IMG/VR virus record: IMGVR_UViG_3300037132_000065
Location: 1 to 43,248 of that record
DNA from: a virus
DNA: 43,248 nucleotides
Direction: 5' to 3' (one strand)
The notes under the pieces are model-generated. The model was not told where the DNA came from and searched no databases. It saw nothing but the letters and a program-made list of their open reading frames with translations. The first letter of the stretch is position 1; every line of letters begins with the position of its first letter. Made by a program: the position numbers and the translations under genes. Of this stretch, positions 3,441 through 43,248 are shown one piece after another.

Positions 3441-3706
3441 TGAATTCGGTAATGATTCGAAATTGTCATGAGCGGTCAGGGTCAGGGCCAGGGTCACGGT
3501 CAGGGTCACGGTCATGGTCAGGGTCAGGGTCACGGTCAGGGTCACGGTCATGGTCAGGGTCACGGTCAGGGTCACGGTCATGGTCAGGGTCACGGTCAGG
3601 GTCACAGTCATGGTCACGGTCACGGTCACGGTCATGGTCACGGTCACGGTCACGGTCATGGTCACGGTCACGGTCACGGTCATGGTCACGAGAGGTATTA
3701 AAATGA
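3437..3706 (+). CDS. Possible low-complexity repeat protein (Ser/Arg frame)
   Basis: ATG 3437 overlaps the previous stop and has a GAGG site, so this frame is the best placed for translation. It gives [15 protein letters not shown] and then a Ser/Arg/Gly/Trp repeat ([11 protein letters not shown] type). An alternative frame from ATG 3468 to 3701 gives a Gly-His/Gln repeat (GQGHGHG type) that could bind metal. There the unit differences are His/His or His/Gln changes, milder than the Arg/Gly/Trp changes in the Ser/Arg frame, but it lacks a ribosome site. The array is open in every frame, so coding cannot be decided from the sequence. Confidence 0.35.
3474..3690. repeat. GGTCAN hexanucleotide tandem repeat
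   Basis: About 36 units of GGTCAC, GGTCAG or GGTCAT follow each other almost without interruption. Only the sixth base varies. No stop codon occurs in any of the six frames across the array. Confidence 0.95.
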
Positions 3707-4179: not shown

Positions 4180-4217
4180 AAACGATACTCGGTTTATTTA
4201 CGGGTATCGTTTTTTTA
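4180..4217 (+). terminator. Rho-independent terminator of the plus-strand accessory cluster
   Basis: AAACGATAC (4180-4188) pairs with GTATCGTTT (4204-4212) and a run of T follows to 4217. It lies between convergent genes (plus end at 4142, minus end at 4215). On the minus strand only three T follow the stem, so it mainly stops plus-strand transcription. Confidence 0.85.
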
Positions 4218-6550: not shown

Positions 6551-6918
6551 AATCCCTCCATTAGTTTTAATGAATCTTCAACGCTCCAAACAATCCCGCC
6601 TCGTCCGCCGTTATCGTTCACCATCTGAACGAATGAAGCCTGCTCAACTGTAGGTTTTCCGTTACCTTCTTTGACTTCGATAGCAAGGAATTTTCCGTTT
6701 TTAATTCCAATTAAATCAGACGATCCGACGCATAACCCGGAATGTAAAACTCGCGCATGGTGGATTAAAACGTCACCTGGAATCAATCGAACGGTTTCTT
6801 GTTTGTGTATGAACCTATAGTCGCCTATCCAAGCTTGAGCGACGTTGTTTCTAAATAAACGCGCTCCTTGTCTAGAGGCTTCTAGTTGAATAGTTCTCAT
6901 TAGGTCGGGCTCGTTCAT
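6547..6918 (-). CDS. VRR-NUC domain nuclease
   Basis: A single-domain nuclease of the PD-(D/E)XK superfamily. The core reads GSSDLIGIKNGKFLAIEVKE then GKPTVEQASFV: Asp of GSSD, then Glu-x-Lys (EVK), then the conserved TxxQ helix. The 123-aa length is that of stand-alone phage VRR-NUC proteins, which are thought to cut branched or flapped DNA. The start overlaps the helicase stop by ATGA, and the next gene overlaps its own stop. It probably works with the adjacent SF2 helicase on replication or recombination intermediates. Confidence 0.9.
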   Translation of the reverse strand: MNEPDLMRTIQLEASRQGARLFRNNVAQAWIGDYRFIHKQETVRLIPGDVLIHHARVLHSGLCVGSSDLIGIKNGKFLAIEVKEGNGKPTVEQASFVQMVNDNGGRGGIVWSVEDSLKLMEGL

Positions 6919-8267
6919 ATAGCCGCCTTCCTTTGCCTAGCATTCCAAACGTGTCTGGCCCACGCCTTGGGATGGTTATATCCCCTATGCTGTGCCACAG
7001 TAATAAGGTCTTCGTAACTCTGTGCCGTCCATTGAGGAATTTTCACGGCTCGCTCGACTTCTTTTAATTCTCCTTCAACTTCTCTCAGCTTTTCAACAAC
7101 AGCTTCAAACTTAAAACCGCAGAACTTACACACCCCAGACGGAACTTGAGCCGCAAAACATCTTGGGCAAATCTTTACATGAACTTCTTGACTCGATTTT
7201 TTCTTCCCTACGTTTCCTTCTAAACTCCATTCTCTAACTGCGTCAGGCAATCCGTGGCGCCTACAATTTCCAACGTGATCTAATATGATGGCGTAGTCTT
7301 TGCCTTCTGCGGGACGAAGGCACCTTCCAAGCATTTGCAGATACATGCTTAGGCTTTGAGTCGGCCTGAGCATGATTACCGCTTCAATTGCGGGACAATC
7401 GTATCCCTCGCCAAACAATTCAACGTTTGAAACGACCGATGTTTTACCATCCTTGAAATCGTTCATCACGCGATCTCGAATTTCGGTTGGAGTTTCTCCG
7501 TCAACGTGTTCCGCTTTTACTCCAGCCGATCGGAATTGTTCTACTATATGCTTCGAGTGTTCAATTGACGATGCAAAAACAACCGCGCGTTTACCACGGC
7601 ACAACTTGAGGTATTCATTTATGGCGCTACCAGTAATGGTGGGCTTATCTACTCGTTCATTTGTTGCCTTACGATCAAAATCCCCCATCGTTGTGCGAAT
7701 ACCGGTCATGTCAACCGTTGAAGGAGCATATAGTTTGTAATCCGAAAGAAACCCGGCTTCAATCAACCAAGAAACGGTTGGACCTTTAACCATTGCCTGA
7801 AAATATTTTCCTAAACCCTTTCCATCCAGTCTTTGAGGCGTGGCCGTGAGTCCGATATGAAACGCTTCTGTAATTTGATTAAATATAAACTCCCAATTCT
7901 TGGCGGCTAGATGGTGACATTCATCATATATAATAAGACCGGGTTTTGACATATGTTCATAACGTCTCTTAAGACTTTGAATGGAGCATATTTGAACCGG
8001 AAAATGCGGTTCTTCCATAAATCCAGCAGACACGACGCCACACGGAACTCCTACGTTAGAGAATGCCTTTAGGACTTGGCGTATAAGCTCCCTTCGATGC
8101 GTTATAAACCACACGCGATTTCCCAACGCAACACTGGATTTAACTATGTATGAAGCCAACACCGTTTTTCCTGACCCCGTAGGGGATTCGAGTATCATGG
8201 AACGAACACCAGAACGCATGAGCGCCCTGGCCTCGTTGCTCATTTTTTCTTGGTATGGGCGGAGCAT
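6915..8267 (-). CDS. SF2 DEAD/DEAH-family helicase
   Basis: ATP-driven DNA translocase of the type III restriction-like (ResIII) phage helicases. Visible motifs: PTGSGKT (29-35), DECH (115-118), TATPQR (141-146), and QMLGRCLRP near 312-320 (motif VI). A C-terminal zinc knuckle (CPRC...CKFCGF) sits near 370-390 and probably binds DNA. The 450-aa length is normal. The start is ATG 8267, directly after the stop of the regulator gene, and the stop overlaps the VRR-NUC start. A role in replication fork or recombination processing is inferred from the neighbours. Confidence 0.92.
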   Translation of the reverse strand: MLRPYQEKMSNEARALMRSGVRSMILESPTGSGKTVLASYIVKSSVALGNRVWFITHRRELIRQVLKAFSNVGVPCGVVSAGFMEEPHFPVQICSIQSLKRRYEHMSKPGLIIYDECHHLAAKNWEFIFNQITEAFHIGLTATPQRLDGKGLGKYFQAMVKGPTVSWLIEAGFLSDYKLYAPSTVDMTGIRTTMGDFDRKATNERVDKPTITGSAINEYLKLCRGKRAVVFASSIEHSKHIVEQFRSAGVKAEHVDGETPTEIRDRVMNDFKDGKTSVVSNVELFGEGYDCPAIEAVIMLRPTQSLSMYLQMLGRCLRPAEGKDYAIILDHVGNCRRHGLPDAVREWSLEGNVGKKKSSQEVHVKICPRCFAAQVPSGVCKFCGFKFEAVVEKLREVEGELKEVERAVKIPQWTAQSYEDLITVAQHRGYNHPKAWARHVWNARQRKAAI

Positions 8268-8468
8268 TTATTTGATGTCTTCCATTAGCATCTCAATCGT
8301 CACTCCCCACTTCATTTTGTTTGACGCGGATAATACTGATTTCCAGTTATGAGCAGGAATAGCTCCCCTGGTTTTCCAATGATGCAAAACAGCTCGTTCC
8401 ACTCCAATGGCGCGAGCGGCTTTAGTCAAACCGCCAGATTTTTCAATAATACGTTCTGATGTGTTCAT
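8268..8468 (-). CDS. Cro/YdaS-like helix-turn-helix regulator (66 aa)
   Basis: Small DNA-binding protein with the helix-turn-helix pattern GLTKAARAIGVERAVLHHWKTRGAIP (residues 13-38; broken here only for description), typical of Cro or YdaS-type antitoxin-like repressors. It is the first gene of the minus replication operon, has an AAGGAAATC ribosome site, and faces a strong divergent promoter. It probably controls this switch region. I see no CI-type partner in the window, so a full lysogeny switch is not supported. Confidence 0.8.
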   Translation of the reverse strand: MNTSERIIEKSGGLTKAARAIGVERAVLHHWKTRGAIPAHNWKSVLSASNKMKWGVTIEMLMEDIK

Positions 8469-8490
8469 TTTGATTTCCTTTCAGATAAAT

Positions 8491-8496
8491 ATTATA
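8491..8496 (-). promoter_or_regulatory. Candidate -10 box for the minus replication operon
   Basis: On the minus strand this reads TATAAT, about 22 bases before the regulator start. No good -35 is seen at 16-18 bases, so the promoter may need an activator or be weak. It lies next to the divergent plus promoter, so the two could compete. Confidence 0.5.
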
Positions 8497-8507
8497 TCAT
8501 TCGAAGG

Positions 8508-8536
8508 TTGACAAGTCTAATACAATCGAATACAAT
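8508..8536 (+). promoter_or_regulatory. Consensus sigma70-type promoter for the recombination-lysis operon
   Basis: TTGACA (8508-8513), a 17-base spacer and TACAAT (8531-8536). A second TACAAT at 8521-8526, in the direct repeat TACAATCGAA/TACAATATTC, may be an operator half-site. The GTG start at 8572 follows with an AAGGAG site. This is the cleanest promoter in the window. Confidence 0.85.
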
Positions 8537-8571
8537 ATTCAAACGTTGTTAATTCATCAAGGAGAACGAGC

Positions 8572-9495
8572 GTGAGCGAGATAATCAAGTCTAACCCAAA
8601 AATCACGTCTGGAAAAAGAAAAGAGCCGTTGACTATTATGTTGTATGGCGTTGCTGGTATCGGTAAAACGCAACTAGCTTCTGAATCCGAAAATCCAATT
8701 TTCATCGGAGAACGCGGAAATTTGCTTTTGGACGTTTCCCGCTTTGACGAAGAAAAAACATTTGCGGAGTTTGTCGAAGACATCAAATGGTTGATTGAAA
8801 ATGAACACATTTACAAAACTCTTGTGATTGACACTCTTAGCTGGCTTGAGCCTTTAGTGTTCCAAGAAGTATGTTCTGAGCAAACAAAACCAGCCAAAGA
8901 CATTTCAAAGGTGCCACACGGTGCCGGTTACACTTCGGCTTATGCAAAGATGGAAAGCGTCACAAAGCTTTTGAATGATCTTAAAGATAAGAAAAAAATG
9001 AACGTTGTGATTATTGCTCATTCAAAAGTTAAGCCATTTAATGATCCCACTTCGATTGAACCATACGATAAATACGTTCCTTCGTTGAACGAAGCCATTT
9101 CCGCAATATGGGTCAAGTACGTCGATGCCCTCATCTTTATGAACTACGAAACGTTTGTAAAAGAGGGAGAACGACGGGCTTATGGAGACGCGCTTCGTAT
9201 TGCTTACACCGAAGAACGTCCTTCATTCCAAGCTAAAAACCGTTACGGGTTGCCTTATCGAATTGCCATGCGCAAAGGGGAGGGATGGAAAACTCTAGTT
9301 GAAGCGATTGAAAAATCAGAACCAAACAGTCTGGAAGTGTTGCAACGAGCCGTTGCCGAATTGCGAAAGACAATTTCAGGGGAGCCTGAATTTTTGTCTA
9401 AGGTTGATAAGTCGATTGCCGATGCTGGTGTTGATTTGACTAAGTTAACGGCCATTCGCGACCGTATGGTTGCATTAACGGGAGGTTTAAAGTGA
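8572..9495 (+). CDS. Sak4-like / AAA_24 RecA-fold recombination ATPase
   Basis: Probable single-strand annealing or recombination ATPase. P-loop GVAGIGKT at residues 26-33, a Walker B-type strand LVIDTLSW near 84-91, and later HSKVKPFNDP, as in phage AAA_24 (PF13479) proteins of the Sak4 type. The length (307 aa) is slightly longer than the shortest members. The start is GTG behind AAGGAG. It is followed by a coiled-coil protein, a DUF669-like protein and a YqaJ exonuclease, which is the usual company of Sak4 recombinases. It acts in the cytoplasm on single-stranded DNA by inference. Confidence 0.85.
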   Translation: MSEIIKSNPKITSGKRKEPLTIMLYGVAGIGKTQLASESENPIFIGERGNLLLDVSRFDEEKTFAEFVEDIKWLIENEHIYKTLVIDTLSWLEPLVFQEVCSEQTKPAKDISKVPHGAGYTSAYAKMESVTKLLNDLKDKKKMNVVIIAHSKVKPFNDPTSIEPYDKYVPSLNEAISAIWVKYVDALIFMNYETFVKEGERRAYGDALRIAYTEERPSFQAKNRYGLPYRIAMRKGEGWKTLVEAIEKSEPNSLEVLQRAVAELRKTISGEPEFLSKVDKSIADAGVDLTKLTAIRDRMVALTGGLK

Positions 9496-14169: not shown

Positions 14170-17100
14170 CTACCTCTTGGTTATGGGAGTGGTTACGTCT
14201 TGCCAATGGTACGGGATGTTTTGGTGCATATGCTTCCATCCGTTTATCACAAGTGTATCAATTTCCTTCGGGTTGTTCGATGCAATTAAGGCGGAAGAAA
14301 GCATTTCCTCTGCATCAGATTGCTTAAAATGTTCTTTATCAAACATTAATTTTTCAGTGCTTTTTATAACTTCAACGCCTCTGGTTATAACGTCTTCACC
14401 TGGATATAAGTGATATGCCCACGGTCGAACGCTGTGCATGGCATTGAGTCCGTAATCTCCCACGCCTCTAGCCAATGGCAACATTTCAAACGAAGCGATT
14501 GCAATTTTTTCAGTCAACCTGCGTTTTTTATCTTCATTATTTTGAATCATTGGGTTTCTGAAAACTTCATTTACTCCCCAATTTATGATCGCCGGAGTAA
14601 GTACAAAGCTATTGAACAGTTTGGCCGTTGCCAAGCAACCAGTCAAATAGTCTTTGTTCTTGAAGTTTCCTTGAGCCTTTTTAGCGTCAATGTAAAATCT
14701 ATTGCCCCAAGAAGCGAACACTTGAAAAGCAGGAGCAAGACCTTTCTCAAATTCTCCTGCGTTCTCGCCTCTTGAGAACATTACATGATGAGTCTTTGAT
14801 CCGGTTCCAAACACGTTATCAACGAACTCCCTAGCCAGATGAGCCGCTTCGTAATCGCTCTTTCCTTCGGCTTTAGCATTATTGTAAATCGTATCGAAGT
14901 GAGTGTATGAAACAAGTTTGTGTGCCAAACGCTCGGATAGGTATTTGGTTTGATTGTAGAATACTTGCCAAGAGTTTTTACCCAAAGACTCTTCATGAAA
15001 CTGTTGAGCATTATAATTAAATGTGTTACCTATCAATTTCATGGAAGGGTCTATTTTGTTGACTCTATCCTCGATAGCCTTGAACTTATCTCCCGAAGGA
15101 ATAACAACTCCGTTGTCCCACATAGACCTTGCGAATTGGTTCTTATCCTCCCAAAGAGATCGGTTAATATCGGTCATTAACTTGATCGGGTACATCTTGG
15201 GACGCCAACCAATGTTGTAGCTTAGTTCTGAAATCCTGGCCCATCTCAAAGCATTAGCTATGGAGTTTATGGCTGTGTTTCCGAATTGCTTGCCATGTCC
15301 ACCTTTTGCAAGATAAGACAGTTGGTCTGTAAACAGCTTCGCTCCATTGTTGGTTAACACATCGGCCAAAGAAGAATAAACAACTTTATTTTTCAAAAGT
15401 TTGTTAACGTCACGCACAGCTTCGGCATAACTTATGTAGTGCATCAACTGGTTTAAATCTTGTGAAAAAATATCTTTATCAAGTGTCAATGGCTTGTTCA
15501 AGTTTTTAATTCTTGATTTAGAGAAATCATCTGTCGCGCGGCTTACGTTAAAGTTCTTGTATGCGTTTTCCAGTTCTACGGCAGAATCTTTAGCTGTTGG
15601 AGGTGCAAGTGATTGATCATAATCAAGATGATGATGCCAACCTTCGTATGTTTTGCCATTGAATTTAACTGGGACTTTCTCGGTTGATCCTGGTTCAACC
15701 CCGTGAAGTTTTAGTTCAACGGCCTTGGCAAGGGGCCACAGTTTCTCTCTGACTTCGCATGTTTCCTTGATGTAATCCATATCATGATCAGTCAAATGAG
15801 ACTTCATGTTTTCTATAGCTTTATCAGAAAATCCGTTTCCGTCCTTGATGCGTTGCAATCCCTCGACATTTCCAATGTTACGCATAACATTGTGAATTTC
15901 CATAATAGACATTTGCTTGAACTTGCCATCTCCCATATCCACAGAAACCTTTTTCTTCATCCTGTCTCCAAAAGAATTATCGGAGAAGTGTTTGTTTCTA
16001 ATATCAGTCAATTCTTTGTATGTACTTTCCTCCATCACTTGATGATTTGATTCTGAATCGCGAAGTTTTCTAGTAATGAAGTCGTGTAAAGGACCGCTCT
16101 TTCCTTCAATTCGCTCCGCAACACTCTCTAATTGACCGAGAGAACGAATCCAAGTGCCTTCAAGCATTGCGGATATAGAGTTTTTTGTTTTCTCCCTATC
16201 TTTATACTCCGCAACCTTTGAACACTTATCTTTAATAGAAGAAACAGCCGAATCAAAACTTCGGCGTTCTCCTGCGGCTTCAATCTCGTTGGTTATCTTT
16301 CCGAAGTGATAAATGCCAGTTGCGGCATTTACTACAGCCTTTAATTCACCAAGAGTAAGGGATGTATGATCTTGTTTTTTAAGATCATTGAAACCATCGG
16401 GGAAGGCATATTCCCAATGCTCATCTTCCTCGGTCATTCTTCCGATTAACTGAGATAACGTTTCTTCTTTCCAACCACTTCCGGTTTTAACCATTCCGGT
16501 AGCGTCAAGTATTTTTGATTCATGTTGTCCATCCATGTGTTCGGCAATAGCTTCCATGTCTGTTTTGCGAAAATCAGCAAGATTGAACTTTGACAGCAAT
16601 TCATTGATTCGTTTTGCAATACCTACTGGTACTTTTAGAACACCAGGTTCTTCCATTCTTGTTTTTTCATCTAGGTATGACGCCGTTCTAATAAGTTTAG
16701 GAACAACGTCTTGGTTACGAACAGCTAACTTAGCAAGTTCGTGATTCAACAACTCCTTGTATTTCCATTTAGCCGCATTCGCGTAATCTTTCTTTTCTGC
16801 GTATTTACCGTATTGCTCAGCGGCGTTCTTACACGCTGTTTGGTACTTATCAAACCTAATCGACTCTCCCGAAGGAGTGTCATTAAGTATCGAACGGGCT
16901 TCCGTTTTAGCTTTGTCTTGAATAGCCTTGGCTTGATCTTTTTCTTTAACTGCATTAGCCTTACGAGCTTCTTCTGATTGTTCGACTGTAGAACCAACTT
17001 CTTCTGGACTGATATTCAATAACTTGGCGTATTCAGCGCTAAGTTGATTAGACCTGGCGTCACCGTACATTAACGCCAAATTAGCTTTAGTTTCGTTAGC

Positions 17101-20100
17101 GTTACCTGGAGCGTGATACTGTTTCATTTCAAGGTCAAGACGGTTCTGTATCTCTGCGTTTTTATCGGCATTTAATGCGATAGAAGCCCCAACCGAAGCG
17201 TCTTGTTCTCCTGAAATTGCAATGCCTATGTTCTCGAACAAAGCCCGTTCTTCAGGCGTTGACGTGTTATCCAACACCTTTTTGGCTACGTCTTTGTAGT
17301 CTGGATTAAGACTATCAAGCACTTGCCATTTAGGGCTACTATTTACATATTTCTCGGCTCGTTCCTTCGCGTCTTGATATATCTTAGATTCTTGCTCTTT
17401 AGGATCGGGTGTCATCCGTTGCATTTGTTTAGATATGATTTCATCGGGATGAAGTTTAATGTTATCCGCTTCGGCCTTAGCCTTTGCTTGTTGGGCATCC
17501 AATCCATTTTCTTTTTTGTATGCGTTGAAACTAGATTTGTACGAAACGTCATACGCACTCTGTAATGAATCGTAATGACGTTTGGTCCATTCGTGCATCT
17601 CTTCTGGACTCAATCCTTTAGGAGCCTCTGGGGTATATCCATTGTGTTGAGCGGCATCGTCTATGTCTGTTTGAGTGGACATAATGCGGTCGTAGACTCG
17701 ACGCATATCAGGCGTCATTTCAACACCAAGGTACTTCTGCATGGTTTCGTAGGTCGGGTATACCATACGAATCCATTTTGCGAACCTATCATAAACAGCC
17801 TTCATGCCCTTGGCAGGAACATCACCCTCCCACAAACGGTATTCAAAACCCCTAGCAAAACGTTCGTGTTTATCTCTGGCGGAATCGGTTATTTTCCCAT
17901 CCTTGCGTTCAAAAACATCATCCCAAGAATTTGCATCAAGGAATTTAAGAGTGTCCTTCTCCATTTGTTTAAGCTCAGGAGAAGCGTCTTTTCCTTTGAG
18001 CATATCGCGCATAACGTAAAGGAAAGCATGGGCGCTTTCGTGAAATATAGTCGATTGGTCTTTGTTCTCGTCTAGCAGGATATGGAACGTTTTTTTGCCG
18101 GTTTCAGGATCGTAGGCGACTCTAATCGCTCCCCTGTTATCCTGATTATGTTCGACATAATCATTTCTATTTCTAAGAAGCTCCCTCGCCTCAAAGTCTT
18201 GGAACGTAACGTTCTTACCAAGTTCTTCGCGGATATTGGCCTGATCCTTAAGCATATCCCCGCTTGTTTCGTATCCATGAAGTTCATCTCCTTGTTTCCT
18301 TGTAATAAACGTTCCGTCGCCCTTCATAAATCCAGTGTGTTCATCAATTATCCCTTTAAGTCCCAAGCGTTTGATTATGTCTGAATGTTCTTCCCCTTCT
18401 AAACCAACATAAATCTCGCCAGTAACAGGGTCTTTAATCGCGGCTCTAAGACCCATTTTTTCTTCGCGGGATTTAAGATAATCAGCTTGTGTTTTCCCTT
18501 TACTATCTACTTTTTGAGCATTGAGTTTGTCCCAACTCATTCCCGTTTGATTAAACACTTCGTTATTTTGTTCAGGGGTTGAGTTAATGAACGGCTTATC
18601 AAACGACTTTTTATTATTATGAAACTCCATCCCAAATGTTTCGGCTCCTTTATCCAACAAGTTTGAAGCCCATTTAGCTACGGCAACACCTTTAGATTTA
18701 GCCTCTCCGGTTTTCATTACACTTTCAATAATCTTATCTTCTAAAGCCTTGCGTCGTTCTGCTACCTTGTCTTGCTCCGTTTGTATAGACTTGGTTTTAT
18801 CTAATTCGTCCTTAGCTTCTCTAACCGAAGGAACATCGTGGTTAACCTTCATCTCATCAATCAATGGCAACAACGTCTTGGCCTTACCGGAAGTAAGTAA
18901 TTCTTCTAATGGAATCTCCACATGGGATGAAGCTGGGTTGGTATAAGACTCGACGGATTTATCACCGAACTCTTTTAGAACATCTTCTGGTTTCTTATCT
19001 TGACAAAACTCTTCAAACGTGTCCGTGGGAATGATTACAGACCCAACCCCAGGATGAGCCTCTTTCATGGCCTTGATAGCTTCTTGAGAATGGCTCTTAG
19101 CGTCTTTATCCGATATGGTTTCATGATTCAGTAAATCGACTAAAGCTTTGTTTGACGCTTTAGAAGCATCGAAATCAGCTTGCGCCTTTCTGTATGCGTC
19201 CTGGCCTTTTAATAAAGAAGATGCTCCTTTAGCAATATGAGGCGCACTCCATCCAATGCTAGACAGCGAACTTTCGGCAATGTTTTCTTTTGCTTTTTGA
19301 TAGTAATTTTGAAACGCATTTGGATCAGCACCCGTAGCTTTATCAACAATTGAATTTGCAAGCAATTGAGCCTGACCTTGAACCGCAAACGCTCCCGACG
19401 TTTCGAGATATGTTCTTACGGTATTAGTTAACATATCTTTTGCCAATGAAGGCCCGAACTTAACAACTAACGGCCTATACAAAACTCCAACGGCACTACC
19501 CACAAATGGTAATGGAATTGCCATTGTTGCGCCTGTAATACCGGCTTTTAAAGTTGAAGCTCCATATCCTTCTCCGTGCTTTAAACTTTCGGCCTCTGTC
19601 ATAGCAGACATGGCCCCGCCAGTACTCAACATCATTACAACTTTGCCAACACCTGCGGCCAATCCAAGTTCAGCAGTTGCCACGAAAGCCGCAATATTCG
19701 GAAGCCATTGAGCCAACTTGTGCGCCGCGCCTTCATAATATTCTGGGTCAGAAAGACTAAGGCTTTTGTCTCCCGTTAAATCTCTGTCTCCGATTGAAGT
19801 AACAATATCGCTTGCGGATTTATCTAAACTTCGTACCCACTCTTGCTCTTTATCGTATCCTGGCAGACTATATCCGGTTGCATCTTTCACGAACTTTCCG
19901 GCAAGAGAACCAACACCAACTGCATTTGATGCTAGTGTATAAGTTCCTTTTTGAAGGTTATCAATAAGGCTCTCTCGTTTTGACAAATCAGGAAGATCGT
20001 TATGAACCGCCGCCATATTTGTCGGGTCTTCAAGGAACTTGGACAATCCAGGGCTGTTGGTCTGCATTTTGTTTAAAAACTCTTGATCCGGTTGGCTCAT

Positions 20101-20436
20101 AGCCTTTCGAGCCGATTCAAGATTTTGTCTTACAATGTCAGGACTGATTCCGGTTTTTTTACCGATTTCTAAAGAATCGGCGTTGTCTTTGGCCGATGTA
20201 TCAGAAACACGATTGTAATTAGTGAGTATCGCAGACTCTTTTGGAGAAACAGAACCAACCGCTTCCTTTGTTTCAAGCATATCTTTATTTGGAAACGGGG
20301 TGGCTTGTTGTTCTGGATAAAAATTACTTTTTGATGGAGGAGTATAAACCAAACCGTTTTCGGCAACCGTTTCTGGTTTTGGACCGGTTTGCAATGGTTG
20401 AGTATTATCGGTAGGTGGAGTGTATTGAAGTTCCAA
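14170..20436 (-). CDS. Giant internal/ejection virion protein with HExxH metallopeptidase motif (2088 aa)
   Basis: By position, just before the fibre and after two other internal proteins, this is the large ejected core protein, analogous to T7 gp16 but much larger. It starts at TTG 20436, with an AAGAGAG site overlapping the end of the upstream gene. A hydrophobic Gly-rich stretch near residues 240-370 could insert into a membrane. The pattern STIFHESAHAFLYVM, about residues 794-808, contains a HExxH zinc-peptidase signature. Much of the centre is highly charged helix (Lys/Glu/Asp-rich). The C-terminal ~450 residues look folded, with Trp-rich WRPKMYPIKLMTDI and a membrane-like LTPAIINWGV. 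A polyvalent multi-domain protein is likely; I do not see a transglycosylase motif. Confidence 0.75.
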   Translation of the reverse strand: MELQYTPPTDNTQPLQTGPKPETVAENGLVYTPPSKSNFYPEQQATPFPNKDMLETKEAVGSVSPKESAILTNYNRVSDTSAKDNADSLEIGKKTGISPDIVRQNLESARKAMSQPDQEFLNKMQTNSPGLSKFLEDPTNMAAVHNDLPDLSKRESLIDNLQKGTYTLASNAVGVGSLAGKFVKDATGYSLPGYDKEQEWVRSLDKSASDIVTSIGDRDLTGDKSLSLSDPEYYEGAAHKLAQWLPNIAAFVATAELGLAAGVGKVVMMLSTGGAMSAMTEAESLKHGEGYGASTLKAGITGATMAIPLPFVGSAVGVLYRPLVVKFGPSLAKDMLTNTVRTYLETSGAFAVQGQAQLLANSIVDKATGADPNAFQNYYQKAKENIAESSLSSIGWSAPHIAKGASSLLKGQDAYRKAQADFDASKASNKALVDLLNHETISDKDAKSHSQEAIKAMKEAHPGVGSVIIPTDTFEEFCQDKKPEDVLKEFGDKSVESYTNPASSHVEIPLEELLTSGKAKTLLPLIDEMKVNHDVPSVREAKDELDKTKSIQTEQDKVAERRKALEDKIIESVMKTGEAKSKGVAVAKWASNLLDKGAETFGMEFHNNKKSFDKPFINSTPEQNNEVFNQTGMSWDKLNAQKVDSKGKTQADYLKSREEKMGLRAAIKDPVTGEIYVGLEGEEHSDIIKRLGLKGIIDEHTGFMKGDGTFITRKQGDELHGYETSGDMLKDQANIREELGKNVTFQDFEARELLRNRNDYVEHNQDNRGAIRVAYDPETGKKTFHILLDENKDQSTIFHESAHAFLYVMRDMLKGKDASPELKQMEKDTLKFLDANSWDDVFERKDGKITDSARDKHERFARGFEYRLWEGDVPAKGMKAVYDRFAKWIRMVYPTYETMQKYLGVEMTPDMRRVYDRIMSTQTDIDDAAQHNGYTPEAPKGLSPEEMHEWTKRHYDSLQSAYDVSYKSSFNAYKKENGLDAQQAKAKAEADNIKLHPDEIISKQMQRMTPDPKEQESKIYQDAKERAEKYVNSSPKWQVLDSLNPDYKDVAKKVLDNTSTPEERALFENIGIAISGEQDASVGASIALNADKNAEIQNRLDLEMKQYHAPGNANETKANLALMYGDARSNQLSAEYAKLLNISPEEVGSTVEQSEEARKANAVKEKDQAKAIQDKAKTEARSILNDTPSGESIRFDKYQTACKNAAEQYGKYAEKKDYANAAKWKYKELLNHELAKLAVRNQDVVPKLIRTASYLDEKTRMEEPGVLKVPVGIAKRINELLSKFNLADFRKTDMEAIAEHMDGQHESKILDATGMVKTGSGWKEETLSQLIGRMTEEDEHWEYAFPDGFNDLKKQDHTSLTLGELKAVVNAATGIYHFGKITNEIEAAGERRSFDSAVSSIKDKCSKVAEYKDREKTKNSISAMLEGTWIRSLGQLESVAERIEGKSGPLHDFITRKLRDSESNHQVMEESTYKELTDIRNKHFSDNSFGDRMKKKVSVDMGDGKFKQMSIMEIHNVMRNIGNVEGLQRIKDGNGFSDKAIENMKSHLTDHDMDYIKETCEVREKLWPLAKAVELKLHGVEPGSTEKVPVKFNGKTYEGWHHHLDYDQSLAPPTAKDSAVELENAYKNFNVSRATDDFSKSRIKNLNKPLTLDKDIFSQDLNQLMHYISYAEAVRDVNKLLKNKVVYSSLADVLTNNGAKLFTDQLSYLAKGGHGKQFGNTAINSIANALRWARISELSYNIGWRPKMYPIKLMTDINRSLWEDKNQFARSMWDNGVVIPSGDKFKAIEDRVNKIDPSMKLIGNTFNYNAQQFHEESLGKNSWQVFYNQTKYLSERLAHKLVSYTHFDTIYNNAKAEGKSDYEAAHLAREFVDNVFGTGSKTHHVMFSRGENAGEFEKGLAPAFQVFASWGNRFYIDAKKAQGNFKNKDYLTGCLATAKLFNSFVLTPAIINWGVNEVFRNPMIQNNEDKKRRLTEKIAIASFEMLPLARGVGDYGLNAMHSVRPWAYHLYPGEDVITRGVEVIKSTEKLMFDKEHFKQSDAEEMLSSALIASNNPKEIDTLVINGWKHMHQNIPYHWQDVTTPITKR

Positions 20437-20438
20437 TG

Positions 20439-22493
20439 CTATCTCTCTTTCAAAGAGCTAGGTTTTGAGATGAACGTGGGCTTCTCTTCTTCTTTAGGAA
20501 CTTCAACCTTTTCCATCATAACCTGTTGGATGTTTTCCCATGTGGGTTTTACAGTATATCCTTTTTCGTTTGGAGGAAGATTATTTATTAGTTTTATGGC
20601 ATTTTGAACGGCCTTGATGCCTTCGGGGGATTGAAGAATCGGAGTAAGTTTCTCACTCAATTTCTCATAATCACTTGCGTCGTTTGAGTATTTAACCGCA
20701 TCCAAAACAGATTGGGTCTGATTACCCAAAGTGTTTTTAAGATTAGATGCAAACTTCATTTGACGGGAAGTTTGTTCTTGATTGCTCAAAGGAATTTTGT
20801 AATTAGGAACAGAAGACATTTTCCATTTTCCTATTTCACCAGGAACGGCAGTTGCCCCATATTTCGACAAATCTCTAAAGAAGTTTGGATTCTTTTTGTT
20901 GTCTGCGCCAGGTTCATCTTTAACCAGGTCTTGAGCAAACTTAACTGCACCTGTAAAATTAACCATTTGCTCTTTATGAGGGTGTATCAGGCTATCGTTG
21001 TTAGCCTGATACACCTCGTTTTGTAACTGAGAAAGCAATTCATATTGACGTTTAGGGTCTGTCTGAGTAGCGTTTACAATCACTTGTTTAGCCGCATTAT
21101 AATTGTTAATAGCTTCTGTAGGGATCATCCCATTGTTTTTCTTTTTAACTATATCCAACCCTTTCCTGTAATCTTCCACGCTTATTTGCTTGCTATCATA
21201 CATATCTTTTAGTTCGGATGCTCCGGCTTTGCCTTTCATCATGTTACTTTCCCAATCAACCATGTCGGTAGGACCAGAAATGATTGTAGGTTCAGTGAAC
21301 GCCTGTTTCGCAATTTCTCCCATCATCTCTCGTTCTTCTTCTTTTCCTGCGCCAAAAACGGTTCTGTATTTTTCGCGTTGAGCAATTAAAGAAGGAAGTT
21401 GAAATCTAGGATCATCTGGATTTGCTTCGTTTTGGTGACGAGTTGTTATGCAAAGGTCTTTCCAAGCATTAAGGGCATCTGATTTTTTTTGAATCGTTTT
21501 GTTACTATCTATCTTTGCAAACTGCATCATGTCTTCATAAACTTTTCTTGCATGAATATCATCGCTCTTGAATCTGTCGCTTTTACGAACGTAATCCCAC
21601 AAAGCCGATTCTTTTTCTCGGCCTTCGCTATTAAAAAACTTTTCTTTATCAGCAACAATTCCCTTAATGCCTTCGTTCTTGTCTCCATAATACTCCTGAT
21701 AGGCTTGAGAAGCCGCTACCGGGGCATCGTACTTTTCAACAAAACGATCGTATTGAGCTTCTGTTATTTTCCCACTATCCCTATAGTCCTTTAGGTCTTT
21801 AGGTATCTGATAACCTTGATTGTGCGTGGCCTTCTGATCTCCTATTGTTTCCAACACTCCTTCATGTATCGCTTGTCTATCCTTCTCGATGGCTTCTGGT
21901 GTCCAATGATTCAAACGTGCCGCTTCGTCGCTGGACTTATACATATCGTTGATGTTGCGTTGAACTGCGTTAGGATCGTTGTAATTCATCCCAATGTCGT
22001 GAAGTTTGGCCCCTCGTTGAACCATGAACTTCTCAGTATCTATCTTAGGAGTTTGAGTTGCAACGTGCTGACCAATATCGTTAATCAACCTTGCACGATG
22101 TTCTGCCGAAAGATTGTCAATAGCCTGTTGCTGTCTTTGGTCTGTAACACCGTCCCTTAAAGACTTAACGTTTTCATCGAACATCTTAACTGCGGGATTA
22201 GCGGCTTCAAATGCGTTTGTTCCTTCGTAATCTTTAACTTTGCCAAGTAGGTTACTTGAAAGCAACGTCAACTGTGCATCGTAGTGGTTCTTGACGGCAA
22301 AATCAGCGTGTTCTTGAGCTTGCTTCATGTAATCTTCGGCAGACTTCTTTACTTCTTCTGCACCTTGAGCGTACCTCTGATTAACGTCTTCGTTGCTCGG
22401 AATATCAATATGTTCCCGAACATTGGGAGTTATTTCAGGTCTAACTTCGGGGGCCTTGAACGGACTTTCTACCGTTGGAACTCGTGTACTCAT
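20439..22493 (-). CDS. Internal virion protein, coiled-coil rich (684 aa)
   Basis: The start overlaps the stop of the upstream gene (ATGA). Charged helices dominate (EEVKKSAEDYMKQAQEHADF near the start) with no membrane segment or catalytic motif. Its place between a gp14-like protein and the giant protein matches the T7 gp15 slot in ejectosome gene order. The assignment as the middle ejection protein is by position and composition only. Confidence 0.65.
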   Translation of the reverse strand: MSTRVPTVESPFKAPEVRPEITPNVREHIDIPSNEDVNQRYAQGAEEVKKSAEDYMKQAQEHADFAVKNHYDAQLTLLSSNLLGKVKDYEGTNAFEAANPAVKMFDENVKSLRDGVTDQRQQQAIDNLSAEHRARLINDIGQHVATQTPKIDTEKFMVQRGAKLHDIGMNYNDPNAVQRNINDMYKSSDEAARLNHWTPEAIEKDRQAIHEGVLETIGDQKATHNQGYQIPKDLKDYRDSGKITEAQYDRFVEKYDAPVAASQAYQEYYGDKNEGIKGIVADKEKFFNSEGREKESALWDYVRKSDRFKSDDIHARKVYEDMMQFAKIDSNKTIQKKSDALNAWKDLCITTRHQNEANPDDPRFQLPSLIAQREKYRTVFGAGKEEEREMMGEIAKQAFTEPTIISGPTDMVDWESNMMKGKAGASELKDMYDSKQISVEDYRKGLDIVKKKNNGMIPTEAINNYNAAKQVIVNATQTDPKRQYELLSQLQNEVYQANNDSLIHPHKEQMVNFTGAVKFAQDLVKDEPGADNKKNPNFFRDLSKYGATAVPGEIGKWKMSSVPNYKIPLSNQEQTSRQMKFASNLKNTLGNQTQSVLDAVKYSNDASDYEKLSEKLTPILQSPEGIKAVQNAIKLINNLPPNEKGYTVKPTWENIQQVMMEKVEVPKEEEKPTFISKPSSLKER

Positions 22494-36394: not shown

Positions 36395-37891
36395 CTACCG
36401 TTTTTTCGTCAAGCACTTATATTCATCCAACGTCGTGACCATATTAACCGGTTTACTGCGCATTTTACCCTTCATCGCCACGGGATACGCGAACGTTAAA
36501 AACAACGCATCGCCCATATCGGGCGAATCTAAACCCCTTTTCTTCATATCATCTTTCGATTCCAGCTTTAACTGCCCCTTTATCGTGTCCCCGAATAACC
36601 GGTTACATAACTGCTCCTGTAAATCGGCATCATCAAATATCGAACCCCCGTCTTTCATCCACTGCTTTAACTTCGCCGCCATCTCTGCCGTTTTGTTAAA
36701 ATATTTATCTTTCTGTTCTCCTCCAAAATTAACGTTCAACACTTCCCAACCCAACCGTCTAATTATATCCAGTGTCGGAGCGCCCAATCCTCCCGAGTCA
36801 CCAAACACTTCGTCGGGTTTATACGTCTCAAATATTTCTATCGCTTTTTCTGCAAACTTAACCGAGTCGTGAATCAACGAACCAGGTATCACTATCGGCG
36901 CTATCGTTTTTCCGTCCAATCCTTTCCTAAAATAAAACACGCAATTATCTTGGCCTCCCCTGGCAATATCCAACCCACAAATCAGCGGGTCGAGTACTGT
37001 GGACTGCGCCAACTGTTTTCTCGACATCATCACCAAATCACTGGGGAAAAACTGTAACGAACTCGCGTTCGGGAACAATCCCCTAATACGCGATTTCACA
37101 TAATCGCTGTCCCAACCGTGTGTATCAATCAGTTTCTGAATTTCATCCTGGTCAACGCCTTCTATCCCCTGGGAACAAATATTATACGTCTTCCAAATCG
37201 GTTCCAAATCCGATTCGCGTCTACGCGCTTCGTTCTCGAATATATCGAAAAACCCCCCCGACTTCTGCAACGGGTTTCCAAACGCCAACACGATTATCTC
37301 GGTATCTTTATCCAGGCAGAACGAATCAATCGTTTCCCAGATCGAACGCGGAATACCCGACGCTTCATCGACGGCTATAAATATTCGACTCCCCTGGTTG
37401 TGAAACCCAGCGAACGCCGCCGTGTTATTGTCTCTCCAAATCGCCTGATCCGATTTCCATTCCAGGCGATACTTCTCCTGTGACGAATACATGCTCGTGG
37501 CGGTTATCTCAAACCAACCATTCGTCAAACTCAATCGGTGCCACTTCGACAACTCGGCCCACGTCTTCGTCTTCAACTGCGATCCCGTGTTCGCCGTAAT
37601 CAGGCATTTCGTTCTATTCATCGTGTCCAGCGCCCACTTCTGCAACATATTAATCAGGGCGGATTTCCCAATATCGTGACCGCTGGCAACCGCAATCCTT
37701 ATAATCTTCTTTCCACGCTGTAACTCTTTACCAATATACTTCGCTATCTCGGCCTGCCATTCTCTCGGACCCTGAGCTGACTCCAGGTCATTCTCACCCC
37801 ACGGGAAATTAAAACACATATACCCGTACGGGTCGTGTTTAAATTCTGCAATCTGTTCTCCGAGTTTCATCTGGTATTCGATCTCGTTCAT
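36395..37891 (-). CDS. Terminase large subunit
   Basis: DNA-packaging motor ATPase and nuclease, 498 aa. Walker A-like SGHDIGKSA (GHDIGKS at 71-77), Walker B IFIAVDEASG (Asp-Glu at 175-176), then the nuclease half with GLDIARGGQDN (D308) and VFGDSGGLG (D365) and a further acidic motif DMGDALFL near the end. The start overlaps the small terminase stop by ATGA. Confidence 0.95.
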   Translation of the reverse strand: MNEIEYQMKLGEQIAEFKHDPYGYMCFNFPWGENDLESAQGPREWQAEIAKYIGKELQRGKKIIRIAVASGHDIGKSALINMLQKWALDTMNRTKCLITANTGSQLKTKTWAELSKWHRLSLTNGWFEITATSMYSSQEKYRLEWKSDQAIWRDNNTAAFAGFHNQGSRIFIAVDEASGIPRSIWETIDSFCLDKDTEIIVLAFGNPLQKSGGFFDIFENEARRRESDLEPIWKTYNICSQGIEGVDQDEIQKLIDTHGWDSDYVKSRIRGLFPNASSLQFFPSDLVMMSRKQLAQSTVLDPLICGLDIARGGQDNCVFYFRKGLDGKTIAPIVIPGSLIHDSVKFAEKAIEIFETYKPDEVFGDSGGLGAPTLDIIRRLGWEVLNVNFGGEQKDKYFNKTAEMAAKLKQWMKDGGSIFDDADLQEQLCNRLFGDTIKGQLKLESKDDMKKRGLDSPDMGDALFLTFAYPVAMKGKMRSKPVNMVTTLDEYKCLTKKR

Positions 37892-38325
37892 ACGTCGATC
37901 ACCTTATTCGCCAGCTTCTTATACCTATTCTGGGCTTTATCCAGTAACATTCCAAAATCCAACGTTATATTCGTATCTCCCGTATGTCCATTCTTATATC
38001 TCGCATCCCTTGCGGACAACAACCTGAGCAACAAATCATTGTCGTGCTTGTGTATCGTCTTCACCGCAGTTCCATTCGCATCATACGTCACTTCATCATA
38101 TCCATTCATCGCCCTATTCTTCAGTTCAGTCTCATAAAACTCTATCTGTAATTCCAGCGCTCTCTTATACCCATCCTGTGCCTCGATGTTATCGGCCCGT
38201 ATGTGATCGTAATCCTGAACCGTTATCCCTGATTTTTTACACGCTTCCGTAACCGTATCACCCAACGCAATACGTTTCTCCACCTCAACATACGGTTCGT
38301 TATTCAGGAATCCATCTAATCCCAT
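37888..38325 (-). CDS. Terminase small subunit
   Basis: 145 aa. N-terminal helix-turn-helix-like region (VEKRIALGDTVTEACKKSGI, then TVQDYDHIRADN), helical middle with ELQIEFYETELKNRA, and a helical C-terminus (GMLLDKAQNRYKKLANKVID), a typical small terminase layout. It recognises the packaging start by analogy. The ATGA overlap with the large subunit couples the two. Confidence 0.8.
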   Translation of the reverse strand: MGLDGFLNNEPYVEVEKRIALGDTVTEACKKSGITVQDYDHIRADNIEAQDGYKRALELQIEFYETELKNRAMNGYDEVTYDANGTAVKTIHKHDNDLLLRLLSARDARYKNGHTGDTNITLDFGMLLDKAQNRYKKLANKVIDV

Positions 38326-38520
38326 TTACTTTCCCTTACACTCTTCATCCTTTACGTCCTCCACCATAAAATCCGCCATTTTCACTCCCTTTACCTTAAT
38401 ACCTCCTTCTAACAACATATCCACCGTCACTACCTTCTTATTCTCTCCCCTAAACATACCCAGACGATTCCTAAACACCGGATTTACACTCGGCAAATCT
38501 CTGATCTTTACATATTTCAT
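38326..38520 (-). CDS. Small protein before terminase (64 aa)
   Basis: Begins MKYVKIRDLPSVNPVFRNRL and ends with an acidic KDEECKGK stretch. Contains a hydrophobic strand pair (VVTVDMLLEGGIKVKGVKMA). It sits between two other small genes in a tightly packed run and precedes the small terminase. Unrecognised. Confidence 0.6.
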   Translation of the reverse strand: MKYVKIRDLPSVNPVFRNRLGMFRGENKKVVTVDMLLEGGIKVKGVKMADFMVEDVKDEECKGK

Positions 38521-38783
38521 TTAATCAATCCTTTCGTAATTAAATCCGATACGTGCAACCTTACCCTCTGCCATGCCGCATCCAACCACGCTTTGCTCGG
38601 ACTCCCAAACGTCAACAACTGTCCCTTCTTCAAGTCATGCTTCATCACATACGCACCCGTCAAACACACTACCCCATACTTCTCACACAATCCCTTAAAT
38701 TCTCGGTTAAACCGTTCTTCAATCTTATGATCCTGCTCTTTCCCATAACTATCCGGCAACCACAACTTCTTTTCAATCTCCAT
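38517..38783 (-). CDS. Small charged protein (88 aa)
   Basis: ATG 38783 is preceded by AAGGAGAGAATTG, so it is chosen over an in-frame TTG at 38801. The product is MEIEKKLWLPDSYGKEQDHK onward, with many Lys/Glu and a helical C-terminus (WLDAAWQRVRLHVSDLI). It overlaps the zinc-ribbon gene end by 11 bases. Unrecognised. Confidence 0.55.
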   Translation of the reverse strand: MEIEKKLWLPDSYGKEQDHKIEERFNREFKGLCEKYGVVCLTGAYVMKHDLKKGQLLTFGSPSKAWLDAAWQRVRLHVSDLITKGLIK

Positions 38784-38979
38784 CAATTCTCTCCTTTTCA
38801 ATCATATACAACGCATCCCCTGTATTTCGATGTTTCACTTCCTTAACTCTTTTAACCCTTACTTCACCAATAAACCAATAGCTTGTGGGTCCACACTTTC
38901 TACATTCCATACACCCATATTTCCCATCTTCACTAACAACCTCTTTCAACTCTAAAAAACACTTCGGGCAAGTTTTCAT
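38773..38979 (-). CDS. Zinc-ribbon protein, first gene of the late operon (68 aa)
   Basis: CPKC near the start and CMECRKCG (residues 23-30) form a zinc ribbon, followed by a basic stretch (RVKRVKEVKHR). Its position directly after the late promoter region suggests a regulator or adaptor, though small zinc ribbons also occur widely as unknown phage proteins. Confidence 0.6.
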   Translation of the reverse strand: MKTCPKCFLELKEVVSEDGKYGCMECRKCGPTSYWFIGEVRVKRVKEVKHRNTGDALYMIEKERIDGD

Positions 38980-39001
38980 TATTCAACTATATAATATAAT
39001 G

Positions 39002-39014
39002 TTCTTGACAAGAA
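39002..39014. promoter_or_regulatory. Palindromic operator candidate at the late promoter
   Basis: TTCTTG-A-CAAGAA is a perfect 13-base palindrome. On the minus strand it lies between a TTGAAA -35-like element and TATATT/TATAAT-like A/T boxes before the late operon start (38979). It shares TTGACAAG with the promoter region at 8508. A regulator could bind both sites; this is inference. Confidence 0.45.
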
Positions 39015-39166
39015 TAGTTTCAAAAAATAGATGTACAGAATTTTTCATCCCCTTTCCGCGCGCGCGCCAAAAAGCCGGGGGTAGGGGGTGCCCAAATGTA
39101 TATATGTCATGTAATATATACAACACACACACACAATACACAACATATAGATCGTGCATTTCAACT

Positions 39167-39205
39167 CCCCCTAACTCCCCCAAACTCCCCCGAACCTCAT
39201 ACCCC
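39167..39205 (-). other. G-quadruplex candidate (minus strand)
   Basis: Runs of C at 39167-39171, 39177-39181, 39187-39191 and 39202-39205 mean that the minus strand has four G runs (GGGG and three of GGGGG) separated by 5, 5 and 10 bases. It lies upstream of the late operon on its coding strand. Confidence 0.5.
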
Positions 39206-39283
39206 ATAATAATACCCCTCAATTTTTCGATCCTACGATATACCCATACCAGTACACCACCTCGATATACTAAAACGTTTTAG

Positions 39284-39496
39284 ATCGAATCCTGGTGCAA
39301 TATTTGCACACCGTCCAACACCCGGACCATCACGAATACGCCGACAGATACGAAAACTCCGACGAACACCAATACGGTCACCAATACCTATACGCCGAGC
39401 TTCACAAGGACGATTACCGACACGCCGACGGTCACGAACACTCGAACCGAAACCAGGACACCCACCGATATGTTTACCCCGACGAACACCCGATAA
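39284..39496 (+). pseudogene. Remnant of a Thr/Pro-rich linker gene
   Basis: The frame from 39284 is open for 70 codons and reads as a Thr/Asn/Pro linker (TNTPTDTKTPTNTNTVTNTY and onward, ending PTDMFTPTNTR), but it has no start codon: a TAG precedes it. It resembles the linkers of the proteins at 33658 and 34788 but is on the opposite strand. It is probably a decayed or transferred piece, not a translated gene. Confidence 0.5.
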
Positions 39497-39602
39497 CCCC
39501 CATTGGGGCGTAAACCCACAATTTCACCAATTCAATAATATTCTTGATTATGACATGTTACATGCTGTTTTTTTTGAAATAATTATTTAATGACAAATTA
39601 TC

Positions 39603-39939
39603 AAACCCGACAAATATAAAAAAATATTTTTTCGATTGTTCTCTATATAGTATGTGTGTGGTTTTGTTACGGGTTTTAGGCGTAACGTTTCACCTCGTCC
39701 GTTACGCCTAAACTCCGCAATTTTATTGGTTGTTACGGGTGCAACATCTATATTTCCTATTAAACATAAAAATCTCTGTATACAATTTGTAAATCATGTT
39801 TTTAAATTGTTAGGGTAAATATATCACATTTTTACCTTATATAGGCAAAACAGGCGTAACACGCGTACATTAGTTGCCTGTAATATTTTTAGGCGTAACA
39901 AACGTCCAAAACGTTACACCAGAATTAAACCCGACAAAT
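39603..39939 (+). other. Candidate replication origin with iteron-like repeats
   Basis: AGGCGTAAC occurs at 39678-39686, 39852-39860 and 39891-39899, with its reverse complement at 39701-39709, and looser copies GTTACGGGT (39666, 39732) and GTTACACC (39913). The array is flanked by the direct repeat AAACCCGACAAAT (39603-39615 and 39927-39939) and lies in very A/T-rich sequence with a TTAACGTTAA palindrome just after. That is the make-up of an iteron origin or a cluster of operator sites. Confidence 0.55.
39675..39712 (+). repeat. 13-bp perfect inverted repeat within the iteron region
   Basis: TTTAGGCGTAACG (39675-39687) and CGTTACGCCTAAA (39700-39712) with a 12-base loop. No T-run follows, so it is probably a protein-binding or cruciform site and not a terminator. 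Confidence 0.75.
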
Positions 39940-40058
39940 TAACGTTAAACATTGAATGCATGAATTTATGTATATAATGTTAACAAAACAATTTTTGACA
40001 TAGATTTACATCGTGTAAACCACATTGTTAGATAATTTAACACTTTCTAGACAGTTTG

Positions 40059-40087
40059 TTGACACACTGTATACCAACGTCAATAAT
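40059..40087 (+). promoter_or_regulatory. Sigma70-type promoter for the plus-strand accessory cluster
   Basis: TTGACA (40059-40064), 17-base spacer, AATAAT (40082-40087), about 150 bases before the first gene at 40240. A long leader containing the 22-bp repeat lies between. Confidence 0.6.
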
Positions 40088-42608: not shown

Positions 42609-43248
42609 TGAAGTACGAATTAGTAGGACGTAAAAACAAATATGGGATGCAACGCGTTAAAGCGCTCAAGAGTTTCGGAGATGTTTTGGCGGGCGAAAAA
42701 GGCGGATGGATAGAATCCGAAAAAAATCTTTCACAACGCGGCAACGCGTGGGTGTCCGACGACGCGTGGGTGTCCGACGACGCGCGGGTGTTCGACGACG
42801 CGAGTGTTTACGGCAACGCGCGGGTTTACGGCAACGCGTGGGTGTCCGGCAACGCGCGGGTGTTCGACGACGCGAGTGTGTTAGGCAACGCGCGGGTTTA
42901 CGGCGACGCGAGTGTTTACGGCAACGCGTGGGTGTACGACGACGCGTGGGTGTTCGACGACGCTCGTGTGTTCGGCAACGCGCGGGTTTACGGCGACGCA
43001 TGGGTTTACCGCAACGCATGGGTTTGCGGCAACGCGTGGGTTTGCGGCAACGCGTGGGTGTACGACGACGCGTGTGTGTTAGGCAACGCGCGGGTTTACG
43101 GCAACGCGAGTGTGTTAGGCAACGCGCGGGTTTACGGCGACGCGAGTGTTTACGGCAACGCGTGGGTGTCCGGCAACGCTCGCGTGTTCAGCAACGCGCG
43201 GGTTTATGGCGACGCATGGGTTTGCGGCAACGCGTGGGTGTACGACGA
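42608..43248 (+). CDS. Hexapeptide-repeat phage protein (N-terminal part, runs off the window)
   Basis: An N-terminal domain of ~45 residues (KYGMQRVKALKSFGDVLAGE, then KGGWIESEKNLSQRGNAWV) matches a known phage family in which this lead is followed by hexapeptide repeats of the type V-x-G/D-N/D-A-x. Here about 29 repeats are seen before the window ends, and the gene continues at 1-73 (final length ~236 aa if the six-base overlap is real). The repeats should form a left-handed beta-helix; no enzyme residues are evident. It is the end of a chain of overlapping starts (TAATG at 42606). Confidence 0.8.
   Translation, partial: MKYELVGRKNKYGMQRVKALKSFGDVLAGEKGGWIESEKNLSQRGNAWVSDDAWVSDDARVFDDASVYGNARVYGNAWVSGNARVFDDASVLGNARVYGDASVYGNAWVYDDAWVFDDARVFGNARVYGDAWVYRNAWVCGNAWVCGNAWVYDDACVLGNARVYGNASVLGNARVYGDASVYGNAWVSGNARVFSNARVYGDAWVCGNAWVYD

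Follow-up and report, generated by a model that had tools for sequence, protein, structure and literature searches.

Two opposed iteron arrays around an A/T-rich spacer as the probable replication origin of a VapE-encoding phage

A short non-coding stretch of a phage genome carries closely packed repeats, which raises the question whether they mark a replication origin, a transcriptional control region or a site of another kind. The DNA analysed, here called the window, is a viral contig of 43,248 bp. Both of its ends lie within tandem repeats, and contigs of a close relative span the junction (window 42271 to 123); the window genome is therefore circular or circularly permuted. The window encodes the usual set of terminase, portal, capsid and tail genes, and its capsid is related to BcepC6B-like podovirus capsids. 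The ORFs scanned did not include a DNA polymerase gene. The genes and gene blocks that bear on the question are:

353-898: RusA-like resolvase
3923 to 1/43248 to 40240: accessory gene block on the opposite strand, between VapE and the arrays
4215-6257, minus strand: VapE, the proposed initiator, with Toprim primase, PF05272 helicase (residues 395-600) and predicted C-terminal winged helix (about residues 609-680)
6915-8267, minus strand: ResIII-type helicase
8572, plus strand: Sak4
10300, plus strand: YqaJ/RecE-like exonuclease
36395-38979, minus strand: Zn-ribbon/HNH-like small gene, two small ORFs, TerS and TerL, on the flank of the proposed origin where synteny is kept

A YdaS/Cro-like HTH gene (8268-8468) adjoins another divergent promoter, near 8.5 kb, with which it possibly forms an early regulatory switch. 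Tandem-repeat genes (1852-2236, 3492-3672, 42740-43248) occupy parts of the accessory block that parts VapE from the repeat cluster and are strongly expanded in the relative (L099 7000-10900).

The original prediction described three direct copies and one inverted copy of a 9-mer. AGGCGTAAC indeed occurs four times in the whole contig (39678+, 39852+, 39891+ and 39701-), all within 39678-39899. When the 1.26 kb non-coding stretch was dinucleotide-shuffled 1000 times, no 9-mer appeared four times in 350 bp. As for the looser copies reported beside the exact ones, YGTAACR is present seven times in 300 bp, with a shuffle maximum of four. Eight YGTWACR sites (39556, 39665, 39681, 39700, 39731, 39855, 39894, 39912) span 39556-39918. 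The high A/T content and the palindrome were read correctly, too: the G+C content of 39561-39960 is 31.5% versus 44.9% for the contig, and TTTAGGCGTAACG...CGTTACGCCTAAA is found in the region. A 13-base direct repeat, AAACCCGACAAAT, is located at 39603-39615 and 39927-39939. The features of the locus are:

39556-39562, minus strand: outlying YGTWACR site, TGTAACA (CGTAACA in the relative)
39660-39925: proposed minimal replication origin, both arrays and the spacer
39665-39674, minus strand: left array site 1, ACCCGTAACA, 8/10 of AGGCGTAACR
39678-39687, plus strand: left array site 2, AGGCGTAACG, outer half of an inverted pair
39700-39709, minus strand: left array site 3, AGGCGTAACG inverted
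39731-39740, minus strand: left array site 4, ACCCGTAACA; the relative has the central base flipped (GTTAC to GTAAC) and the core kept
39741-39851: A/T-rich spacer, probable DNA unwinding element by nearest-neighbour energy, 26% G+C
39843-39869, plus strand: right array, tandem 9-bp units AGGCAAAAC-AGGCGTAAC-ACGCGTACA, strong site at 39852-39861
39891-39900, plus strand: right array site, AGGCGTAACA
39912-39921, minus strand: right array outer inverted site, TGGTGTAACG
40059-40087, plus strand: sigma-70-like promoter TTGACA-17-AATAAT of the rightward accessory genes, 11/12 consensus, outside the repeats

The sites fall into two arrays of mainly opposed orientation, left (39665-39740) and right (39843-39921), with outer inverted pairs at both array flanks. 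Strong sites correspond to a 9-10 bp unit, AGGCGTAACR, and weaker 9-bp tandem units adjoin them in the right array. The spacings are 16, 19, 31, [124], 39 and 18, with a single 9-bp tandem run, and one left-array site is oriented the wrong way. The arrays are thus less regular than the best examples of the family described below, which counts against an origin. The gap between the arrays measures 123-124 bp from site to site (26% G+C) and contains, at 39743-39842, the 100 bp of lowest stability in the contig (nearest-neighbour energy, rank 0 of 43148). A DnaA-dependent origin was rejected, since no DnaA box occurs in or near the region; the sole TTWTNCACA of the contig is at 15461. GC skew, proposed earlier as a check, does have its minimum near 39-40 kb. 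However, the minus-strand VapE and helicase genes show the same strand-linked skew; the signal therefore follows transcription and was discarded as independent evidence for an origin.

Conservation was assessed in G001, the sole close relative variant available for comparison, whose DNA is about 95% identical to the window in common genes and about 90% identical across the non-coding region analysed here. G001 retains all eight YGTWACR cores and all spacings. The four substitutions in 56 core bases are all compatible with YGTWACR, one of them flipping the central base. Two of the four exact AGGCGTAAC sites are degenerate in G001 (TGCGTAAC, AGGTGTAAC), so that the predicted conservation holds for the shorter YGTWACR core and not for the full 9-mer. 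As the motif was defined partly after both sequences had been viewed, and the substitution rate in the sites (4/56) is similar to that of the remaining region (32/475) in this one relative, this conservation is supportive and not decisive. The flanking 13-base repeat was dropped as an element, its second AAACCCGACAAAT copy reading TTTTCTAGACAAAT in G001. An RNA hairpin was likewise rejected; the palindrome arms are broken in G001 while both half-sites survive, which indicates paired DNA sites. DNA searches of phages with the region gave no match, and pattern scans of viral contigs returned only the known relative or one unrelated match. Clusters of AGGCGTAAC are absent from the relatives G013-G016 because their iterons are different words.

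Two further differences from G001 were observed. The 2088-aa and 684-aa genes in 14170-22493 are 35% and 43% identical to their counterparts, most neighbours being 96-99% identical, an apparent module swap of internal virion/ejection proteins judging from the sequences. An insert of about 160 bp (39324-39485) without counterpart in the relative encodes TPT-like peptide repeats and is tblastx-similar to the tandem repeat tract 3481-3690.

The segment 39660-39925 is interpreted as the phage replication origin, with a probability of roughly 0.85: two arrays of iterons of about 9 bp (AGGCGTAACR, core YGTWACR) around an A/T-rich unwinding element, with VapE as initiator. The predicted origin function is supported by the site clustering, the conservation, the melting minimum between the arrays, the recurrence of such arrays beside VapE genes, the recovery of the P4 and Sfi21 origins and the gene order. 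DNA sites, non-randomness, conservation, melting minimum, family-wide VapE association, gene order and the predicted fold are the demonstrated parts.

The candidate initiator is encoded on the same element as the arrays, a VapE/PriRep-like primase-helicase (PF05272 match, 1.3e-71). A structural model built from an alignment of 50 VapE proteins reached a mean pLDDT of 93 and replaced an earlier, poor model from six sequences (pLDDT 64). From the N-terminus, it comprises a Toprim-containing primase part, the helicase and, at the C-terminus, a domain of three helices plus a beta-hairpin, which is read as a winged helix. Among PDB structures, PriRep1 with dsDNA matches best (7pds, E 1e-27), ahead of NrS-1 and the SaPI5 primase-helicase. 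The C-terminal domain of SaPI Rep recognises an iteron origin located immediately after its own gene, where the protein apparently binds as a pair of hexamers; the related Cch2 likewise uses its C-terminal domain to bind its repeats (PMC7581432). By this analogy, together with the confidently modelled winged helix and the PriRep1 match, the suggestion that VapE might recognise the repeats gains support. In the ORFs scanned against Pfam and PHROGs, no RepA-type initiator turned up, as had been noted at first sight, and a RepA/iteron plasmid initiator was rejected on this ground; model and analogy make VapE, not RepA, the likely initiator. In 37 VapE-array pairs, iteron similarity correlated with C-terminal identity (partial correlation 0.17 given the helicase core; 3/1000 permutations), compared with 0.09 for the helicase core given the C-terminus. 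The correlation is weak and partly phylogenetic. The Walker A motif (residues 452-459) reads GKQETFKT in the window and G001, while relatives mostly have GxQGxxKS(T); this deviation may, to go by the residues, affect ATPase activity.

VapE-like proteins are widespread, 1011 of 50,697 phage records matching the window VapE. VapE-encoding loci from viral and bacterial collections were scanned for repeated words. In many of them, repeat clusters directly follow the VapE gene and are often mirror-symmetric around a spacer of about 100 bp, e.g. with spacings of 15, 49, 8, 119, 7, 50, 15 in L179 and 21, 54, 9, 118, 9, 54, 21 in L265. Downstream of VapE, a finder for opposed arrays around an A/T-rich gap picked out 15 of 118 windows, as against 2 of 1762 windows elsewhere and none of 590 shuffles; looser settings yielded 38/118 versus 29/1976. 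Compared with other non-coding gaps of the same loci, the ratio was 15/36 versus 8/272 (Fisher p = 1e-10), and several of these eight matches are themselves candidate origins detached from VapE. In about two thirds of the surveyed loci, no array was detectable with exact 6-mers. The top two matches in P4 were crr and the annotated replication origin. In Sfi21, the top match was the annotated 302-bp origin, whose sites have a GTAAC core as in the window. On 11 named VapE phages not used in building it, the finder gave scores above 8 in six: in five the array is at most 400 bp from VapE, and in Mica it is 2.8 kb away. Three of these six are Pseudomonas phages closely related to one another. In the window, two opposed arrays flank an A/T-rich spacer whose length falls within the range of about 70-145 bp taken for VapE/PriRep-type origins.

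Further arrays came to light beside the survey. Two terminase-related contigs (L037 73-343, L041 1335-1540) contain GGTTAC arrays around a gap of 105-112 bp with 24% G+C, likely further origins with a GTWAC core. Lactobacillus phage LfeSau (L291) has two GTTACA/GTAACA arrays, one 11 bp downstream of a VapE-like gene (stop 7224) and the other about 6.4 kb upstream, possibly two origins or an ori plus a crr-like element as in P4.

Most detected family members have the array adjacent to VapE. The window cluster does not follow the initiator gene directly and lies about 7.5 kb from it. Similar detachment occurs in G014/L096 (3.9 kb after VapE), L139 (4.9 kb) and Mica (2.8 kb), so adjacency to the initiator is usual, not universal, and was not treated as defining. 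G013, G015 and G016 encode on one strand helicase, VapE, arrays, terminase, portal and capsid, and the detached arrays of G014/L096 and L139 are still ahead of the terminase. Leftwards, the window reads helicase, VapE, opposite-strand accessory block, arrays, small genes, TerS and TerL, an arrangement found within one contig in G001. The order VapE, array, TerL is therefore shared by G013, G014, G015, G016, L139 and, through the opposite-strand block, the window; the proposed origin holds the family position, and the gene block parts it from VapE. It is fairly probable that in the window phage and several others inserted genes separated the origin from its initiator while its place before the terminase was kept, and that VapE phages as a class use mirrored-array, self-loading origins, usually just downstream of VapE, with an iteron word that changes rapidly together with the C-terminal winged helix.

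Initiation would begin with binding of the VapE C-terminal winged helix to the iterons of both arrays. VapE would load as two hexamers facing the spacer and melt it, the weakest duplex of the genome. The hexamers would then move outwards as replicative helicase, giving a bidirectional start. The Toprim domain would prime both forks, and DNA synthesis would presumably be left to the host polymerase.

An improbable alternative is an operator cluster, i.e. sites of a phage repressor or activator governing divergent late and accessory transcription. The cluster sits in a divergent intergenic region of 1.26 kb, its paired inverted half-sites resemble operators, the one HTH gene found (8268-8468) could supply the regulator and a promoter-like site is present at 40059-40087. 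However, this best promoter lies 140 bp beyond the arrays, and the promoter scan gave a number of promoter-like sites near chance level. The divergent promoter of the HTH gene (8468-8572) is free of YGTWACR, the nearest copy being at 9241. An operator also leaves unexplained the melting minimum, the mirrored geometry and the recurrence beside VapE genes with different words. The reading as a master control region, first offered as the alternative to an origin, is not borne out by the positions of promoter and motif. The placement at a divergence point of late and early genes was half right: late genes run leftwards, but the rightward genes are accessory, and the replication genes map to 4.2-10.9 kb. 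Autoregulation by VapE would be compatible with an origin as well as with an operator.

Still less likely is a packaging (pac/cos) region to which the terminase small subunit would bind. The cluster is about 1.3 kb upstream of TerS, and Variovorax phage VarioGold has an HNH gene, then cos, beyond its VapE region. Against this, the arrays of relatives directly follow VapE at 1.5-10 kb from TerL, the P4 and Sfi21 controls are origins, and the stretch 38980-39550, closer to the small genes and TerS, is the better candidate for packaging. Chance or neutral repeats in conserved intergenic DNA fit the unreduced substitution rate in the sites of the one relative, yet they are very hard to believe and largely refuted by the shuffles and the class-wide association with VapE in the survey, and all four in-site changes retain the degenerate motif.

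As a replication origin, the locus resembles several known systems. SaPI origins (PriRep1 7pds, SaPI5 Rep 7ola) share multiple short iterons and a primase-helicase initiator with a C-terminal candidate DNA-binding domain, its fold being the best structural match to the window VapE. They differ in lying directly downstream of the initiator gene and in belonging to satellites, whereas the window is a full phage; the comparison covers the layout and the initiator. In Streptococcus phage Sfi21 (302-bp non-coding origin, NC_000872), two GTAAC-core arrays flank an A/T-rich gap (83 bp, 13% G+C), and the replication module contains Sak4 and a ResIII-type helicase like that of the window. Its initiator, however, is a Pox_D5/DUF5906 protein without significant BLASTP similarity to the window VapE, and the origin abuts the initiator gene. 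P4 has short iterons in both orientations around a gap, a Toprim-containing primase-helicase (alpha) and an ori not adjacent to the initiator gene, but two repeat regions (ori and crr), an iteron word built on GGTGAACA and, in alpha, a D5_N/Pox_D5 protein. RepA-type plasmid origins combine iterons and an A/T-rich melting region as well; in contrast, the window has no RepA-type initiator among the ORFs scanned, and DnaA boxes are missing from the region and its surroundings.

The proposed window origin is a gene-detached case of the known self-loading helicase origins of the SaPI/P4/Sfi21 type. A search of open-access literature gave no description of VapE-phage origins, and the wider mirrored-array pattern appears to be undescribed there. 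The detached cases indicate that an origin can sit several kilobases from its initiator gene. The recurring architecture allows origin and initiator specificity to be predicted from sequence in many VapE phages, including uncultured ones, and makes the role of the 'virulence-associated protein E', an old question, directly testable.
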